DNA of 35,536 nucleotides, from the NCBI GenBank assembly GCA_005889275.1, contig VBFI01000063.1, positions 1-35,536 of the forward strand. The letters run 5' to 3'. The notes under the pieces are model-generated. The model did no database searches. It saw only the letters and a list, made by a program, of their open reading frames with translations, and was not told the origin of the DNA. A program made the position numbers and the translations under genes. Source of the stretch: Chloroflexota bacterium. Lineage in GTDB: Bacteria; Chloroflexota; Limnocylindria; P2-11E. This document shows, piece by piece, positions 2,039 through 35,536 of this stretch. Each line of letters opens with the position of its first letter. Positions within the stretch are counted from its first letter, which is position 1.

Positions 2039-3441
2039 TCGGGGAGGACGCCCTTCAGGCGCTCGCGCCACGTCGAGGCGACGTCCCTGGCGACCTGCGT
2101 CGCGAGGCCGCGGTACTCCTCGGGCCGCTCGAGGATGCGCCGCTCGTCGGGCCCCAAGCGCTTCAGGTACTCCCGCAGGTCGGTGTCGAGCGTCGCGACC
2201 TCGAGGAGCGTGCGCCCGCCGCGCTCCGCCTCGAGCGTGAGCCGGCGCACGGCCTCGTGCGCATCGGGATGGCCGTACTTGGCGAGGAGCACGTAGAGCG
2301 GCTCGGCGGCGATGGTGCCGCGCGACATCGCGAGGTTCGCTTTCAGCCGGTCACGGTCGACCCGCATGCCGTCGAGCGAGGTCGCGAGCCTGCCCGCCGC
2401 GTACGCGGTCGCCGCGAGGATCTCGCCGAGGAAACGCTGCGACGCGGAGTTCGTGAGATCGCGCTGGTGCTCGCTGATCTGATCCATATAGGTGGTGAGC
2501 ATCCGCGGCGCCATCGCCTTCCAGATCGACTTCACGTTCTCGAACGACACCGGGTTGCGCTTGTGCGGCATCGTCGAGGAGCCCACCTGATCGGGCGCGA
2601 ACGACTCGGCGACCTCGCCGATCTCGCTCCGCTGCAGCTGACGCATGTCGTCCGCGAGGTTCGCCATGACGCCGAGCGCGCTGATGCAGGCGTGCGCGAG
2701 GTCGGTCCAGCCTTCGGGCGGGACGATCTGCGTCGACACCGGCGCGGCGTGCAGGCCGAGGCTCCCGAGGAAGCGCCGCTCGAGCGCCCGCGGATCGCCG
2801 GCGAGGAGGGCGAGCGCGTTGAACGCGCCGACGGCACCGGAGAGCTTGCCGGGGAGCCGCCGCGCCGAAAGGCGCAGCTGCTCGAGCCGGTCGCCCAGGC
2901 GCGCGACGTACTCGGCCATCGCGAAGCCGAACGTCACCGGCTCGGCGTGGCGGCCGTGCGTGCGGCCGATCTGCGGCGTCTCCGCCTCGGCTTCGGCGAT
3001 GGAGATGCACTTCGCGATGAGCACCGCGATCGTCGGCACGAGCACCCGCTCGACGCATTCGCGGTAGCGGAGGGCGTTCGCGGTGTCGACGATGTCGTAG
3101 CTGGTCGCGCCGAGGTGGACGAAGCGCCTTGCCTCGTCGGGGACGTGCGCGCGGATGACGTTCACGAGCGCGCGCACGTCGTGCCTGGTGCGGGTCTCCT
3201 CGTCGGCGACCTCCTGCGGGGTGATCCGGTCGGCGGCGCTCGCGATCGCGTTCGCGGCGGTCTTGTCGGCGATGCCGAGGTCCGCGAGGGCGAGCGCGAG
3301 CGCGCCCTCGACCCGAGCCTGGTACTTCGTGGCCGCGGACGCGGAGAGGTATGGATGGAGCGCCTTGTAGAGGGCCTGGTCTCCGCCGTAAAAACGCGAA
3401 TCGAGCGGCGAGACCGTGTCGAAGCGGCTGGTGATGGTCAT
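2035..3441 (-). CDS. purB: Adenylosuccinate lyase
   Basis: 468 aa. It removes fumarate from SAICAR (to AICAR) and from adenylosuccinate (to AMP), so it serves both the main pathway and the AMP branch. The start at ATG 3441 overlaps the purE stop (ATGA) and begins [19 protein letters not shown]. The fumarase/aspartase superfamily signature [15 protein letters not shown] is intact, as is the [14 protein letters not shown] block that carries the active-site His. The frame stays open far upstream of ATG 3441, but that part is antisense-like low-complexity sequence and is not homologous. Confidence 0.96.
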
Positions 3442-3917: not shown

Positions 3918-5263
3918 GCGACGGCCACCTCCTGTCGCGCGATGTCCGAACGATAGAACCTGCCTTCGAAGCTCACGCGCTCCGCACCGGCATACGCCCG
4001 ATCGCGTGCCTGCGCGACGTTCTCGCCGCTCGCCACCATGTGCATGACGCGGCCGCCGCTTGCGACCAGGTTGCCCGTCCCATCGCGGCGCGTCGCCCCG
4101 TGGAACGCGAAGACGCCCTCGGGCAGCCGGTCGAGGCCGTCGATGCGCATCCCGGTCTTCGGCGTCCCCGGGTAGTTCTCGGCGCAGAGCACCACGTCCA
4201 CGAACGCGCGGCCGGAGAACCTGAGCGGATTCGCGGCGACGTACTCGGCGAGCTTCCCCTCGCCGAGCGCCACCATGAGCCGCGCGAAGTCGCCTTCGAG
4301 CCGCGGCAGCGTGACCTCCGCCTCCGGATCGCCGAAGCGGGCGTTGTACTCGAGGACACGCCAGCCCTTGGACGTCTTCATGAGGCCCGCGTAGAGGACG
4401 CCGCGGTAGGGGGTGCCGCGCGCGGCGAGCGCCTTCGCGATCGGTGCGATGAGCGCGTCGGCGACGCTCTGCGCGTCCGCGTCCGGCAAGACCGTGGTCG
4501 GCGAGAAGGCCCCCATCCCGCCGGTGTTGGCGCCGGTGTCGCCGTCGCCGACGCGCTTGTGGTCCCGCGCCGGCGGGAGCGCGACGACGGTCTCCCCGTC
4601 GACGAGCGCCTGGAGCGACGCCTCGTCCCCTTCGAGGAGCTCCTCGAAGAGCACTCGGCCGTCCGCGACGGCGGGCGAGCCGAGCGCTTCGCGCGCCTCT
4701 TCGATCGTTCGCGCGACCACGACGCCCTTGCCGAGCGCGAGACCGTCGGCCTTGACCACGAGCGGAGCGCCCCAGCGCTCGAGCGCGTCGCGGGCGGCGC
4801 CCGCGTCGGCGAAGGCCTCCCACCCGGCGGTCGGCACGCCGGCCTCCTTCATGAGCTCCTTCGCGAAGCTCTTCGACCACTCGACCTTGGACGCTTCCCG
4901 CGACGCGCCGACGACCGCGATGCCCGAACGGCGGAGGACGTCGCCCATGCCCTTCGCGACGAGATCGTCGGGTCCGACGATCGCGAGGTCGATGTGCGAG
5001 GCGAGCACGTGCTCCTCGATGCGGGGCACGTCGTCGGGGTTGAAGCCGATGATCCGCGTGAAGAGCGACATGCCGGCGTTTCCCGGGGTGACGTCGATGG
5101 TCGTCACGCTCGAACAGTTCGCAAGGCGCCAGGCGATCGCGTACTCCCGACCGCCGCCCCCGAGCACGAGGCAGTTGAGGCCCGGCGCCCCGGGCGAGCG
5201 CCCGGGGCTGCGCTGCCTCCGCTGCTCCCAGATCTTCTGATGCACGCGCTCGCCGCGGAGCAT
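3914..5263 (-). CDS. purD: Phosphoribosylamine-glycine ligase (GAR synthetase)
   Basis: ATP-grasp ligase joining phosphoribosylamine and glycine. The conserved N-terminus is [19 protein letters not shown]. The ATP-grasp core has [14 protein letters not shown], and a later block reads [23 protein letters not shown] supplies metal-ligand residues. No start codon lies directly before the conserved core. The nearest in-frame candidates are ATG 5263 and GTG 5272, giving about 28-31 extra residues rich in Arg, Gly and Pro. That segment includes a near-perfect GC palindrome at 5188-5207. Either the protein has an unusual N-terminal extension or a start is hidden by a sequence error. guaA lies immediately upstream. 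Confidence 0.93.
5188..5207. repeat. GC-rich inverted repeat in the 5' part of purD
   Basis: Two 9-bp arms, CCCCGGGCG and CGCCCGGGG, are separated by 2 bp. It would fold into a very stable hairpin in the mRNA between the guaA end and the conserved start of purD. No T-run follows, so it is not a standard intrinsic terminator. It may modulate purD translation or only reflect an Arg/Gly/Pro-coding extension. Confidence 0.5.
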
Positions 5264-29341: not shown

Positions 29342-29905
29342 GTGACGAGGGACGAAGCCTGGACGCTCCTATGCGAGCACACGAAGTCGGAGAGCCTGCG
29401 CAAGCACGGGCTCGCCGTCGAGGCCGCGATGCGCCACTTCGCGCGAAAGAGCGGCGAAGACGAGGAGACGTGGGCGATCGCCGGGCTCCTTCACGATTTC
29501 GACTACGAGCGAGATCCCGAGGGGCATCCGCAGAACGGCAAGCCCATCCTCGAGCAGGCCGGGGTCCCCGGTCCGATCGTGCACGCGATCCAAAGCCACG
29601 GCGACCACACCGGCGTTCCGCGCGTCACCCCGATGGAGAAGACCCTCTACGCGGTCGACGAGCTCTGTGGTTTCGTGACCGCGGTCGCCTTGGTGAAGCC
29701 ATCGAAGGCGGTGCGCGACGTCGACGCGACGTCGGTCCGCAAGAAAATGAAGGACAAGGCCTTCGCGCGCGCGGTGAGCCGGGAGATGATGCTGAAGGGC
29801 GCCGCGGACATGGGCGTCCCGTTCGAGGACCTGGTCGCCGAAGTCGTCCAGGCGATGGACGGCGCCGCGGAGCGCCTCGGCCTCCAGGGGACGATCACCG
29901 CCTGA
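29342..29905 (+). CDS. HD-domain phosphohydrolase-like protein
   Basis: 187 aa from GTG 29342, with a GGGAGG ribosome binding site. HD-superfamily ligands are visible: His22 in RKHGLAVE, the His51-Asp52 pair in GLLHDFDYE, SHGDHTG and the later Asp in YAVDELCG. The length fits the predicted HD hydrolases (COG2316-type) rather than larger HD-GYP or RelA enzymes. It probably hydrolyses a phosphate ester or nucleotide with bound metal; the substrate is unknown. A LuxR-type gene runs antisense across its 3' half. Confidence 0.85.
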   Translation: MTRDEAWTLLCEHTKSESLRKHGLAVEAAMRHFARKSGEDEETWAIAGLLHDFDYERDPEGHPQNGKPILEQAGVPGPIVHAIQSHGDHTGVPRVTPMEKTLYAVDELCGFVTAVALVKPSKAVRDVDATSVRKKMKDKAFARAVSREMMLKGAADMGVPFEDLVAEVVQAMDGAAERLGLQGTITA

Positions 29906-30174
29906 TCGCGTGCGACGTGCACGGCGGCGGCGGCGCGCGTCGTCACGCCGAGCTTCGCGCGAGCGCGTCGTATGTGCGTCTCCACGCTGGCGGGGGTGAT
30001 CCCGAGCGCGAGAGCGATCTCCTTCGTGGTGCGGCCCGCGGCGACAGCACGCACGACCTCACGCTGTCGAGCGGTGAGGGCATCGTCCTCCGTGCGGGAC
30101 GCGAGGAGGCTCCTCGCGAAGACAAAACCGAGGACGACACCGGCACCGAGCGAAGCCATGTCCCGACCGCTCAC
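29647..30174 (-). CDS. LuxR-type HTH protein with N-terminal membrane helix; C-terminal part doubtful
   Basis: The first 85 or so residues are convincing. A membrane helix, MASLGAGVVLGFVFARSLLA, is followed by a complete LuxR/GerE HTH: LTARQREVVRAVAAGRTTKEIALALGI and PASVETHIRRARAKLGVTTRAAAAVHV. After about 29900 the frame continues 250 bp antisense to the HD-domain gene with low-complexity sequence, so the true C-terminus is probably just after the HTH. A one-base shift near 29900 reaches a stop at once. Starts are GTG 30174 or ATG 30159. It is 31 bp after the zinc-ribbon gene. A membrane-tethered DNA-binding protein with no receiver domain is odd. Confidence 0.65.
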   Translation of the reverse strand: MSGRDMASLGAGVVLGFVFARSLLASRTEDDALTARQREVVRAVAAGRTTKEIALALGITPASVETHIRRARAKLGVTTRAAAAVHVARDQAVIVPWRPRRSAAPSIAWTTSATRSSNGTPMSAAPFSIISRLTARAKALSFIFLRTDVASTSRTAFDGFTKATAVTKPQSSSTA

Positions 30175-31126: not shown

Positions 31127-31465
31127 TTATGTCGCCTGCCTGCCTCTCGCGATGAGCTCGGCGACTTTCTGTCCGCCCTTCTTGCCGATCTCCTCGAAAT
31201 GCTCGTGGCCGTATTTCTCGGAGACCGTGTCGCCGCCGATCTTTCCGATGCGACCGTAGAAGCGCGGCCCGTAAAGCTCTTTCACCTTCTGCCCGCCCTG
31301 CTTGCCGATCTGCTCGTAGAAGTCCGAGCCGTGACGTTGCGCGGTCGTCTTACCGCCCTTCTTTCCGATCTGCTCGTAGAACTCCGGTCCATGACGTTGC
31401 GCGGTCGTCGCGCCTCCACGGCGGCCCGCCTCGGCCACAGTCATCGCGCCTTTGTTCCGCGACAT
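31127..31465 (-). CDS. KGG-repeat stress protein (GsiB/YciG-like)
   Basis: 112 aa from ATG 31465 with an AAAGGGG ribosome binding site. Five units begin GRRGG, GKKGG, GKQGG, GKIGG and GKKGG at residues 14, 34, 54, 74 and 94, an exact 20-residue period, each followed by a helix-like segment such as AQRHGPEFYEQI. This is the stress-induced KGG repeat (PF10685) of B. subtilis GsiB and E. coli YciG. It is hydrophilic and probably cytosolic, made under starvation or desiccation by analogy. The exact activity of the family is not known. Confidence 0.93.
   Translation of the reverse strand: MSRNKGAMTVAEAGRRGGATTAQRHGPEFYEQIGKKGGKTTAQRHGSDFYEQIGKQGGQKVKELYGPRFYGRIGKIGGDTVSEKYGHEHFEEIGKKGGQKVAELIARGRQAT
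31166..31426 (-). repeat. 60-bp coding tandem repeat of the KGG protein
   Basis: Four full 60-bp units plus a partial one encode the 20-residue KGG repeats. Adjacent units are still similar at DNA level, for instance the two GACGTTGCGCGGTCGT-bearing copies near 31332 and 31392, which implies recent expansion or homogenisation. Confidence 0.8.
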
Positions 31466-31602: not shown

Positions 31603-32199
31603 TTAGCTGCCGACGCGCATGGAAAGCGTGCAGAGGTCGGGGCAGCCGAGCGCGTGTCGCGTCGCGTTCGAAAGGTCGAGCGCGCGCCCGGCGATGTAGG
31701 GCCCGCGGTCGATGACCGGGACGCTCACGCTTCGTCCGCCATACGTGAGCGTGAGCACCGTCCCGCAGGGAAGCGTGCGATGCGCGACGCCCAGGATCTC
31801 CGGCGTGTAGGTCTGACCGCACGCGGTCCGGTTCCCGTAGAAGCCGGGCCCGTACCACGACGCGAGCACGATGCCGGCGACCGGTGGAGGCTCGAGCGAG
31901 GGCAGCACGATCGGAGGTGGCGGCGCGAAAGTCCTCGCCGGCGGCGAAGGTGCGACCGGTGCCGCCGCCGGTTCGGGCGCGGGCTCGGGTGCGTTTTCGC
32001 GTCCCGCGACTATTTCCGGTATCACACCGTCGCGAACGCGGCTCGCGCCGCGCGCGATCCCCTGCACGCCCGCCGGTTCGTACACGGATGCGACCGACAC
32101 CGGCGCGGCGCGGCGCGCCGCCGAGCCGCCGACGAACGGCACGGCCAGCACAAAGGCAAACGCAAACACGCCCGCACGCGCGAGTGGCTCCCCGACCAT
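31603..32199 (-). CDS. RlpA-like double-psi beta-barrel protein, exported
   Basis: 198 aa from ATG 32199; longer starts up to 32274 add only arginine-rich sequence. A signal-like segment (RAGVFAFAFVLAVPFVGG) is followed by a Pro/Ala-rich linker (about residues 65-105) and a C-terminal DPBB domain: LASWYGPGFYGNRTACGQTY, GVAHRTLPCGTVLTL, PVIDRGPYIAGRALDLS. The His of AHRTLP and the Asp residues of IDRGP and ALDLS are present, but the acidic residues after the Gly in the usual GExFD are Gln and Thr here. Two Cys (TACG and LPCG) probably pair, as in actinobacterial forms. It is a wall-binding or lytic protein; activity is uncertain. Confidence 0.85.
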   Translation of the reverse strand: MVGEPLARAGVFAFAFVLAVPFVGGSAARRAAPVSVASVYEPAGVQGIARGASRVRDGVIPEIVAGRENAPEPAPEPAAAPVAPSPPARTFAPPPPIVLPSLEPPPVAGIVLASWYGPGFYGNRTACGQTYTPEILGVAHRTLPCGTVLTLTYGGRSVSVPVIDRGPYIAGRALDLSNATRHALGCPDLCTLSMRVGS

Positions 32200-32351
32200 C
32201 GCGCGCGACTCAGCACGACCGATTCCAGCATGTGTCGAATCTGTGAACACGGCGAACGCGCGCCGACAGCGCATGCGCGGGCGACGCTTGGTGGCTCGGT
32301 CAAATTTCTCGCGATACGAAGTCGTTACGCACCGTTAGACCCGTTACAAGG

Positions 32352-32927
32352 TCACGCGGGAACGGCGATGACGACGAAGCGCGGATCTTCGCGGTTCGGG
32401 CCGGTCGATGTCTGCAGGGTCAATCGTTCGCTCGCGGTCGGCTGCACCCAGCTCGTGTCCTCGGGAGGAACCCGCGGGTGGATCTCGGTGACCAGATAGC
32501 GGAGCGCGGCGCCGCTCGGCGTGCTGATGAAGACCTCGTCGCCGACGCGCGCGTTCCAAAGCGTCAAGAACATGCCACGCCGCGCGTGCGCGTAAAGATA
32601 GGTATTGCTGCCATCGCCCGGGATCGCGGTCCCCGGCAGATGGAACGCGAAGTTCTCGGGAGTCCGCTGGACCACGATGTCGCGCTCGACGTCGCCCTCC
32701 GCGATCGGAAGGTCGATCGAAAGGCGCGGGACCTGGATGCGATATCCCGGCGCGATCGGACCGCTCGTCGCCACCGGCGTCGCGGACGCGTCCGTCGACG
32801 GCGGGCTCGGGGTCGTTGGGGCGCCCGCATCGGTGACGAGGGCCCGTGGTCGCTCGCCGGCGGCGAAGATGACGACACCGAGCGCGATGAGCATCGCGCC
32901 GACGATCGGAAGAGAGAGGCGCCGCAT
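32352..32927 (-). CDS. Sortase-fold protein with the catalytic Cys replaced by Ser
   Basis: 191 aa from ATG 32927. One N-terminal membrane anchor (LPIVGAMLIALGVVIFAAG) and a Ser/Thr/Pro linker precede a sortase beta barrel (about residues 60-191). IQVPRLSIDLPIAEGD is the usual opening, and His114 in NTYLYAHARRG is the active-site His. At the TLxTC position the sequence reads LTLQTSTG, with Ser174 encoded by TCG. Arg179/Arg183 follow. The protein has no Cys at all, so normal transpeptidase chemistry is not possible. It may be a non-catalytic, Ser-based or structural variant. It is divergent from the M24 peptidase gene 26 bp away. The gap 32200-32351 shows nothing recognised. Confidence 0.85.
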   Translation of the reverse strand: MRRLSLPIVGAMLIALGVVIFAAGERPRALVTDAGAPTTPSPPSTDASATPVATSGPIAPGYRIQVPRLSIDLPIAEGDVERDIVVQRTPENFAFHLPGTAIPGDGSNTYLYAHARRGMFLTLWNARVGDEVFISTPSGAALRYLVTEIHPRVPPEDTSWVQPTASERLTLQTSTGPNREDPRFVVIAVPA

Positions 32928-32953: not shown

Positions 32954-34060
32954 ATGCCGACCGAACGACCGAGCTTCGGCGATCGTCGCTCGCGCGCGGC
33001 CGCGAAGCTGCGCGAGCATGACCTTGCCGCATTGCTGCTGACGCCCGGTGCGGACCTCCGCTATCTCTCCGGCTATCAGATCTTCGCGAGCGAGCGGCTC
33101 ACGTGTCTGGTCATCGACCGCGAGGGCACCGCCACGCTCGTCTGCCCCGAGTTCGAGGCGCCGCGCGCGTCCGCGGCCGCGCCGGATCTCTCACGCGCGA
33201 CGTGGAGCGAGACGGAGGATCCCTACGCCCGCGTCGCCTCGCTCATCCGGGGCGCCGGCGGGCTTGCCGTCGCAGACCAGATGTGGGCGGCATTCATGCT
33301 GCGCTTGGAGGGCGCGCTTCCGGAACGAACATTCCGTCTTGCCTCGGAGGTCACGCGCGAGCTCCGTATGCGCAAGGACGCCGGCGAGCGCGATGCGTTG
33401 CGGCGCGCGTCCGAATCCGCGGACCGCGCGTACGCGCGGATCCTCGAGCGCCCGTTCGCGGGTCGCACCGAGCGAGAGATCGGTGCCGACCTCGCGAACC
33501 TGCTTCGCGACGAGGGGCACGATGAAGTCGACTTCACCATCGTCGCCTCCGGGCCGAACGGGGCGTCGCCACATCACGAGACCGGCGAGCGCCGGATCGC
33601 CGACGGCGACACGGTCGTCCTCGACTTCGGCGGCGGGCTCGGCGGGTACCGATCGGACATCACGCGAACGGTCCACGTCGGCCGAGCGATCGATCCCGAG
33701 GAGCGGCGGGTGCACGACATCGTGCGGCGCGCGCAAGAGGCCGGCTACGACTCGGCGCGGGCCGGCGCGCCGGCAGAGGCCGTTGACGCCGCCTCGCGCG
33801 CGGTCATCGACGAAGCGGGCTACGGAGCGTTCTTCATCCACCGGACCGGGCACGGCATCGGACTCGACGGACACGAGCACCCCTACCTCGTGCGCGGGAA
33901 CCGCGAGCCCCTCGAGCCGGGGATGGCCTTCTCGATCGAACCGGGGATCTATCTCGCTGGTCGCTTCGGCGTTCGGATCGAGGACATCGCGATCATCGAC
34001 GACGACGGAGCGGTGCTTCCTCTCAACCGCGCGGACCACGCGTTCGCCACCGTCGGCTAG
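32954..34060 (+). CDS. M24 family aminopeptidase (Xaa-Pro peptidase type)
   Basis: 368 aa from ATG 32954. The N-terminal creatinase-like domain (about 10-130, with LLTPGADLRYLSGY) is followed by the pita-bread domain. Metal ligands are the Asp in VVLDFGGG, the Asp in RSDITRTVHVG, the His in HRTGHGIGLDGHEHP, the Glu in SIEPGIY and the Glu in RIEDIA. The family cleaves N-terminal residues, often before proline. There is no signal peptide, so it is cytosolic. It is followed by two membrane-protein genes 3 bp away and overlapping, probably one transcript. Confidence 0.92.
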   Translation: MPTERPSFGDRRSRAAAKLREHDLAALLLTPGADLRYLSGYQIFASERLTCLVIDREGTATLVCPEFEAPRASAAAPDLSRATWSETEDPYARVASLIRGAGGLAVADQMWAAFMLRLEGALPERTFRLASEVTRELRMRKDAGERDALRRASESADRAYARILERPFAGRTEREIGADLANLLRDEGHDEVDFTIVASGPNGASPHHETGERRIADGDTVVLDFGGGLGGYRSDITRTVHVGRAIDPEERRVHDIVRRAQEAGYDSARAGAPAEAVDAASRAVIDEAGYGAFFIHRTGHGIGLDGHEHPYLVRGNREPLEPGMAFSIEPGIYLAGRFGVRIEDIAIIDDDGAVLPLNRADHAFATVG

Positions 34061-34797: not shown

Positions 34798-35536
34798 TTA
34801 TCGCACGAGCGGGAGGGCGGCCGCCTTCGCCCACTCGTACAGCGAGTTCGGCACGATCCCGAGGACGAGGACCGCGAGCGAGGCGATCCCGAGGCTCGCC
34901 GAAAGGCCGCGCGCGCCGACCACCGGCGGCAGCGCGCCTTCGGGCTCGTACATGTACATGTGCACGACGACGCGAAGGTAGTAGAAGGCGGCGAGCACAG
35001 CGTTGAGCGCGATGACGACGGCGAGCCACGCGAGGCCCGCGTCCAGGACCGGTTGGATCACCACGAACTTCGCGACGAAGCCGATCGTCGGTGGGATGCC
35101 GGTGAGCGAGATGAGGAACACCGCGAACGCGAGCGCGCCGAGAGGCGCGCGGCGCGCGAATCCGTTTAGCTCGTCGAGGGTCGCGCCACGCGTGCCTTCG
35201 AGGTCCAGGTAGAGAAGACACGCGAACGCGCCGAGGTTCATGAGCCCGTAGGCGAAGAGGTAGAAGAGGACCGCGGCGCCGGCGCTCGGGCCGGCCTTCG
35301 CGGCCGCGACCGCCGCGAGGATGTATCCGGTGTGCGCGATGCTCGAGTACGCGAGCATCCGCTTCGTGTTCGTCTGCACGAGGGCGACGATGTTCCCTCC
35401 GGTCATCGTCACCGCGGCGAGGACGGCGAGCACGGCCGCCCAGTCGGCGCCCAGCGGGCCGAGCGCGCCGACGAGGACCCGCAGGATCGCCGCGAACGCC
35501 GCCGCCTTCGGGCCGACCGACATGAACGCGGTCGCC
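34798..35536 (-). CDS. nuoN: NADH-quinone oxidoreductase subunit N (partial, 5' end outside window)
   Basis: The last 245 or so residues are present; the gene continues past the right edge. The Nqo14/NuoN antiporter-like signature starts with ATAFMSVGPKAAAFAA, followed by MTGGNIVALVQTNTKRMLAYSSIAHTGYIL (the Lys and His residues of the proton channel), then YGLMNLGAFACLLYL and SLTGIPPTIGFVAKF. At least five or six membrane helices follow. It is a proton-pumping subunit of respiratory complex I and is usually the last gene of the nuo operon, which fits its end here facing the convergent membrane-protein gene. Confidence 0.95.
   Translation of the reverse strand, partial: ATAFMSVGPKAAAFAAILRVLVGALGPLGADWAAVLAVLAAVTMTGGNIVALVQTNTKRMLAYSSIAHTGYILAAVAAAKAGPSAGAAVLFYLFAYGLMNLGAFACLLYLDLEGTRGATLDELNGFARRAPLGALAFAVFLISLTGIPPTIGFVAKFVVIQPVLDAGLAWLAVVIALNAVLAAFYYLRVVVHMYMYEPEGALPPVVGARGLSASLGIASLAVLVLGIVPNSLYEWAKAAALPLVR

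Follow-up and report, generated by a model that had tools for sequence, protein, structure and literature searches.

The window analysed here, a stretch of 35,536 nucleotides, encodes a sortase homologue in which serine stands at the position of the catalytic cysteine. This protein is likely to be a serine-nucleophile sortase, predicted to cleave LPxT-type signals and probably to transfer the cleaved protein to the cell surface. The computed basis for this reading comprises the fold, the residue at the site, conservation of Ser and His, purifying selection, signal proteins, gene pairs and one Ser/Cys exchange. Somewhat less surely, we favor the view that the whole Chloroflexota class anchors surface proteins with serine sortases. 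In a family described as dependent on Cys throughout, the nucleophile would then have changed long ago and stayed changed, with Ser and Cys interchanging in nature and less constraint on the Arg.

The window gene, its predicted fold and its neighbors

The Ser-sortase frame is read from the minus strand, from an ATG at 32927 to a stop at 32352-32354, and encodes 191 amino acids. A 226-residue version is possible from an earlier ATG at 33032, but it would overlap the divergent M24 gene. The following features were assigned:

32352..32927, minus strand: Ser-sortase coding sequence, 191 aa, with an N-terminal membrane anchor, a linker and the sortase domain (about residues 53-191)
32862..32918, minus strand: predicted N-terminal membrane anchor, hydrophobic residues 4-22 (mean hydropathy 2.54)
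32586..32588, minus strand: codon CAC of His114, the catalytic His
32406..32408, minus strand: codon TCG of Ser174, where TLxTC has the catalytic Cys (here TLQTS), from profile alignment and codon readout
32379..32381, minus strand: codon CGC of Arg183, aligned with the catalytic Arg; many relatives have Lys or Glu here
34798..35523, minus strand: NuoN-like gene
32954..34060, plus strand: M24 peptidase-type gene, a divergent neighbor kept within the family
31603..32274, minus strand: RlpA-like protein (DPBB_1), a downstream neighbor kept within the family

The sortase fold proposed in the earlier note was borne out. The Pfam model PF04203 matched residues 64-190 with 61.7 bits (cut-off 26.6), placing the protein in the superfamily of sortases. 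An AlphaFold model built from 62 aligned sequences had a mean pLDDT of 86, with blocks of 92-98 over residues 61-191. The predicted fold is a sortase beta-barrel and superimposed on SrtA of Streptococcus pyogenes with Z 17.9 and 1.7 Å over 124 aligned residues. A Pro/Ser/Thr linker separates the N-terminal hydrophobic segment from this domain. The class-specific cut-offs of NCBIfam were not reached, the best class model giving 24.8 bits against a cut-off of 160, and TIGR01076 scored 28.5 bits, below its cut-off of 39.35.

As had also been claimed, the 191-residue protein contains no cysteine and the codon at the TLxTC site is TCG. Alignment of the profile to solved sortases places Ser174 on the catalytic Cys, and His114 and Arg183 occupy their canonical places. 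Of the residues that define the cysteine transpeptidase sortases A-F, His and Arg are thus present and the Cys of TLxTC is absent. Judged on its sequence, the protein is outside the cysteine-transpeptidase classes by the Cys criterion. Its fold, descent and genomic context make it a sortase homologue, one that probably works like a sortase.

The frame at 34798..35523 was named from its sequence and is presumably NuoN-like. The M24 peptidase-type gene probably has no part in the sortase mechanism. Further downstream, a small KGG/LEA_5-type protein (31127-31465, minus strand) is 91-99% identical in relatives, where it also stands beside the sortase, and is far more conserved than the neighboring genes. 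At locus L017 (G011:C221) the sortase frame continues without a stop into a KGG-repeat protein, with apparent remains of an RlpA-like gene between the two parts. An HD-domain gene (29342-29905, plus strand) overlaps a LuxR-type HTH frame (29647-30174, minus strand), and both are found in the same places in relatives.

Distribution, selection and descent of the serine site

Relatives were found in 52/61 near genomes by a search with P0002, and a profile built from them (A1) matched 148/177 genomes of the class. The census, drawn from those of the listed matches that were read, covers 138 distinct sortases of the class and another 59 found elsewhere in the phylum Chloroflexota. Rows gapped at both the Ser and His sites and near-copies (at least 139/141 model columns alike) were dropped before counting; G057 and G349, for instance, each have two more matches outside the census. 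Among these listed matches the nucleophile site in the class is Ser in 135/138, Cys in 3/138 and never another residue, while outside the class it is Cys in 59/59. The catalytic His is invariant both inside (138/138) and outside the class (59 rows). The earlier note would have been refuted by homologues with random residues at the Ser position and a lost His; the site was found to hold Ser or Cys only, and the His is kept throughout. In all 135 Ser forms listed, Gln172 and Thr173 precede the serine; the Cys forms mostly have Ile/Val and Thr/Ser at columns 172-173. Ten additional class sortases, assessed by motif reading only, are all of the Ser type. So are the three sortases read from family f5, whose genomes are about 1.1 Mb. 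A search of a plasmid collection gave four distant matches.

The three Cys cases in the class are a tandem paralogue with LQTCLGP in L037 and L038 and an enzyme with LETCTSY in L266 (the same gene in L308). The LQTCLGP paralogue lies on the plus strand at about 439-1008 in L037 and 249-1031 in L038, some kilobases before a pair of substrate and Ser-sortase genes. Another locus, L267 (G501:C94), carries an open frame of 526 residues with two tandem Ser-sortase domains, both reading LQTSEGP.

The Arg position is less constant. The earlier note had held that nearby Arg residues remain, and this stands for the window protein (R183, in the canonical place) and fails across the class, where the residue is mostly Lys or Glu. 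Among the matches listed the class has Lys 78, Arg 39, Glu 15, Gly 5 and one gap (n = 138), and the other classes have Arg in 55/59 with gaps in four. An NRN motif near this position, whose Arg might act as a substitute, is common to the f4 enzymes with Glu. In one study, the Arg to Ala form of a Cys sortase was inactive (PMC13257024), and the relaxed Arg in the class counts against a serine sortase. In another, the Arg was argued from substrate complexes mainly to bind substrate (PMC9520033).

Computation shows that the window gene is under purifying selection, with dN values of 0.11-0.20 against dS values of 0.64-1.14 in the genus. Among the matches listed, TCN codons encode the serine in 115 of the 135 Ser forms and AGC does so in the other 20. 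These two codon sets are not joined by any single base change. At least six switches between them are needed on the tree, and the residue is Ser both before and after every switch.

A single Ser clade was not rejected. On a quick tree with few columns and many open forks (3/197 rows dropped for gaps), the Ser rows require three changes; holding them together scored better, the constrained tree being 26.8 log units above the free one (p-AU 0.72). In 18/31 Ser loci with enough sequence, a NuoN-like homologue precedes the Ser-sortase on its own strand. Its presence in families f1, f3 and f4 points to vertical descent of the Ser-sortase; on these grounds, and since a single clade was not rejected, horizontal scatter was set aside. 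Serine probably replaced cysteine in a single event, close to or at the root of this Chloroflexota class. It would have been maintained by selection since, with Cys in a few lineages.

Sorting signals and gene pairs

No candidate substrate was detected in the window among its 207 ORFs of at least 100 codons by a simple sorting-signal rule. The earlier remark that no LPXTG substrate is seen is therefore correct for the window and wrong if taken as a sign that substrates are absent from the genome. The genome of the window sortase encodes three secreted-type proteins that end in LPSTST or LPSTSS followed by a hydrophobic stretch and a basic tail, the LPxT-hydrophobic-basic C-terminal signal of sortase-dependent anchoring. 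The tails read ...LPSTSTDDTTPIAFVGLMLMAIGGGLLRWKPATRTN, ...LPSTSSSDQSAPLIAFGAALIAVGAFLARRPSIFTR and ...LPSTSTSETAPLMSGALIAALGGLLILRMARPGR. In two of the three frames a signal-like hydrophobic segment is also present at the N-terminus; the remaining frame is cut off by the end of its contig.

Other sortases in this genome had been suggested as a matter to check. PF04203 gave a single match in the assembly (235 contigs, 90.8% complete), and a second, Cys-type sortase was discarded as a candidate on this basis, although at this completeness one might have been missed in this single genome. The exosortase model PF09721 (EpsH-type) gave no match in the same genome, which likewise removed an exosortase as the processing enzyme. 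Among the 61 genomes searched, the sole exosortase was found in L277 (G037:C94; PF09721, 79.3 bits).

Profile scores were of limited use in recognizing the signals. TIGR01167 scored the three proteins at 22.1, 20.0 and 17.0 bits (cut-off 15.9); the score alone is weak, since 9/14 control genomes also had matches above this cut-off. At a loose limit, PF00746 matched in 13/14 control genomes and TIGR01167 in all 14. Both models alone are poor detectors, and the signals were therefore judged by reading the tails themselves and from the surrounding genes. A further profile (A2), built from 18 sorting-signal tails, matched 17 genomes at E ≤1e-9, all of family f1 and with its own training proteins included. 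This confinement of the strong matches counts against the serine reading, the profile having been trained in f1.

In family f1, PF04203 matched at 26 places in 23/28 genomes, all 26 on loci read as Ser. Signals were present in 17/23 f1 genomes with a sortase vs 0/5 without (Fisher p 0.0047), an association confounded by kinship because in genus g8 signals are missing both from three sortase-bearing genomes and from the two that have no sortase. At L206 (G040:C23), two plus-strand frames (2192-3427 and 3978-5231) have similar ends, VPGSRYP and IPATRYAD, each followed by a hydrophobic stretch and RRRR; these ends are possibly another C-terminal signal, in family f4.

Gene pairs were found at some of the loci. 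In the QTSTSY sub-clade, 8/8 Ser-sortases have a signal-protein gene directly upstream on the same strand, whose product carries an LP[SNR]T-type signal, a hydrophobic stretch and a basic tail. A Pfam scan of seven of the eight partners matched the Ig-like Big_1 domain in 7/7, all below cut-off. The same arrangement occurs in one more Ser case (L321) and in the Cys case L308. The eight nearest tree rows to L266, the sortase of L308, are Ser-sortases of this sub-clade. L308 (G436:C21; 4189-5621, plus strand) combines a Cys form (LETCTSY) with an upstream partner of the same type, in a sub-clade whose other members are Ser enzymes, and is a natural Ser/Cys exchange in a co-operonic pair. In another lineage, at L041 (G014:C34; 6747-7877, minus strand), the gene directly upstream of the Ser-sortase codes for an ice-binding-like protein (PF11999, 220.9 bits) whose C-terminus carries an LPSTST signal, which suggests a surface-anchored ice-binding protein.

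By an adjacency rule, signals were carried by 14/878 adjacent same-strand ORFs vs 3/3,227 other ORFs, both sets including spurious ORFs. Where the stretch was 2,500 bases or longer, a signal neighbor was recorded for 9/97 class rows and 5/58 outside rows. Most Ser-sortases, that of the window included, are accordingly without an adjacent partner by this rule, which counts against the serine reading. So does the Cys paralogue in the genomes of L037 and L038, as it could process their signals.

The serine reading, its alternatives and known systems

In the proposed mechanism, the sortase would be anchored in the membrane and use serine as its nucleophile. His114 would deprotonate Ser174, which would attack the Thr carbonyl of an LPxT-type signal (LPSTST and the like) to give an oxyester acyl-enzyme instead of the usual thioester. 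The acceptor of the protein would most likely be a cell-envelope amine. Ser174 is assigned as the putative nucleophile because the site is Ser or Cys only, the His is invariant, signals occur in a genome with no match to another sortase or to an exosortase, and Ser and Cys interchange within a gene pair.

The earlier note had left three options: a serine-type variant, a pseudoenzyme that binds sorting signals, or a lineage-specific structural use. The evidence favors the serine-type variant, given the sorting-signal proteins in the genome and beside some Ser-sortases and the replacement of Ser by Cys in one co-operonic pair. The main rival, which we regard as unlikely, is a non-cleaving pseudoenzyme, a chaperone or scaffold to which sorting signals would bind, its Ser being kept for shape or hydrogen bonding. 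The relaxed Arg across the class agrees with it, as does the requirement for Cys in the sortases studied in the cited papers; there, change of the nucleophile to Ala inactivates sortases, and no statement was found that Ser alone suffices. SipA also offers a parallel, as a signal-peptidase fold that serves surface-protein assembly without its Ser-Lys pair (PMC4049620). Such a scaffold is at odds with a site that is Ser or Cys in 138/138 listed class sortases and never Ala, Gly or Thr, and with the invariant His. It also leaves a genome with signals and neither another PF04203 match nor an exosortase, and a co-operonic pair in which Cys stands in for Ser.

A sub-variant of the preferred reading is a serine hydrolase, in which Ser174 would cleave the signal and water would release the protein with no transfer to the envelope. 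The site data fit hydrolysis and transfer alike. In a study of subtilisin, replacing the nucleophilic Ser by Cys favored peptide ligation through a hydrolysis-resistant thioester (PMC9126251), from which it may be argued that an oxyester favors hydrolysis. The full tripartite form of the signals, basic tail included, and the service of Ser and Cys forms to the same type of gene pair speak for transfer, although both are compatible with hydrolysis too, and simple release is considered improbable. A sequencing error, a frameshift or a decaying pseudogene might be suspected in a single draft assembly of 235 contigs; the chance of this is negligible, as it is ruled out by Ser in 135/138 distinct class sortases among the matches listed, by the open frame and by the low dN/dS.

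If the serine-sortase reading is true, the sortase fold can function with a nucleophile other than Cys and, in many cases, in the absence of the Arg. Oxyester and thioester transpeptidation could be compared in otherwise matched natural enzymes, and the roles of Cys and Arg tested in matched natural pairs. Sortase inhibitors and ligation tools act on the catalytic Cys; serine sortases would be possible ligases untouched by thiol-reactive agents.

No description of a Ser sortase was found in searches of open-access literature, as judged mostly from titles and the beginnings of abstracts. A His-Cys-Arg triad is described for sortases irrespective of class in one paper (PMC13257024), and an older one notes a single Chloroflexus protein that is homologous to sortases, without evidence of function (PMC1586193).

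Among known systems, the window protein resembles sortases of classes A-F (PF04203; MEROPS C60) in its fold (Z 15-18 to SrtA, SrtC and SrtE structures), His, TLxT context, Arg, N-terminal anchor and the LPxT-type C-terminal signals in its genome. It differs in having Ser for the family-defining Cys and in scoring below every NCBIfam class cut-off. SipA of Streptococcus pyogenes (PMC4049620) similarly keeps an enzyme fold in surface-protein (pilus) assembly without the usual catalytic residues; both of these are gone in SipA, whereas the Ser-sortases keep an invariant His and a site that is Ser or Cys only. The rhombosortase with GlyGly-CTERM (PMC3237569) likewise pairs an enzyme of the serine type with a sorting signal at the C-terminus, but it is a rhomboid intramembrane protease of a fold unrelated to sortase. 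The nearest Cys sortases, from other Chloroflexota (L139-L146), share the YAH motif and a corresponding site (LQTC, LLTC, LMTC or MQTC), with Arg in most and an adjacent signal gene in some, and differ from the Ser-sortases in having Cys at the site in 8/8.
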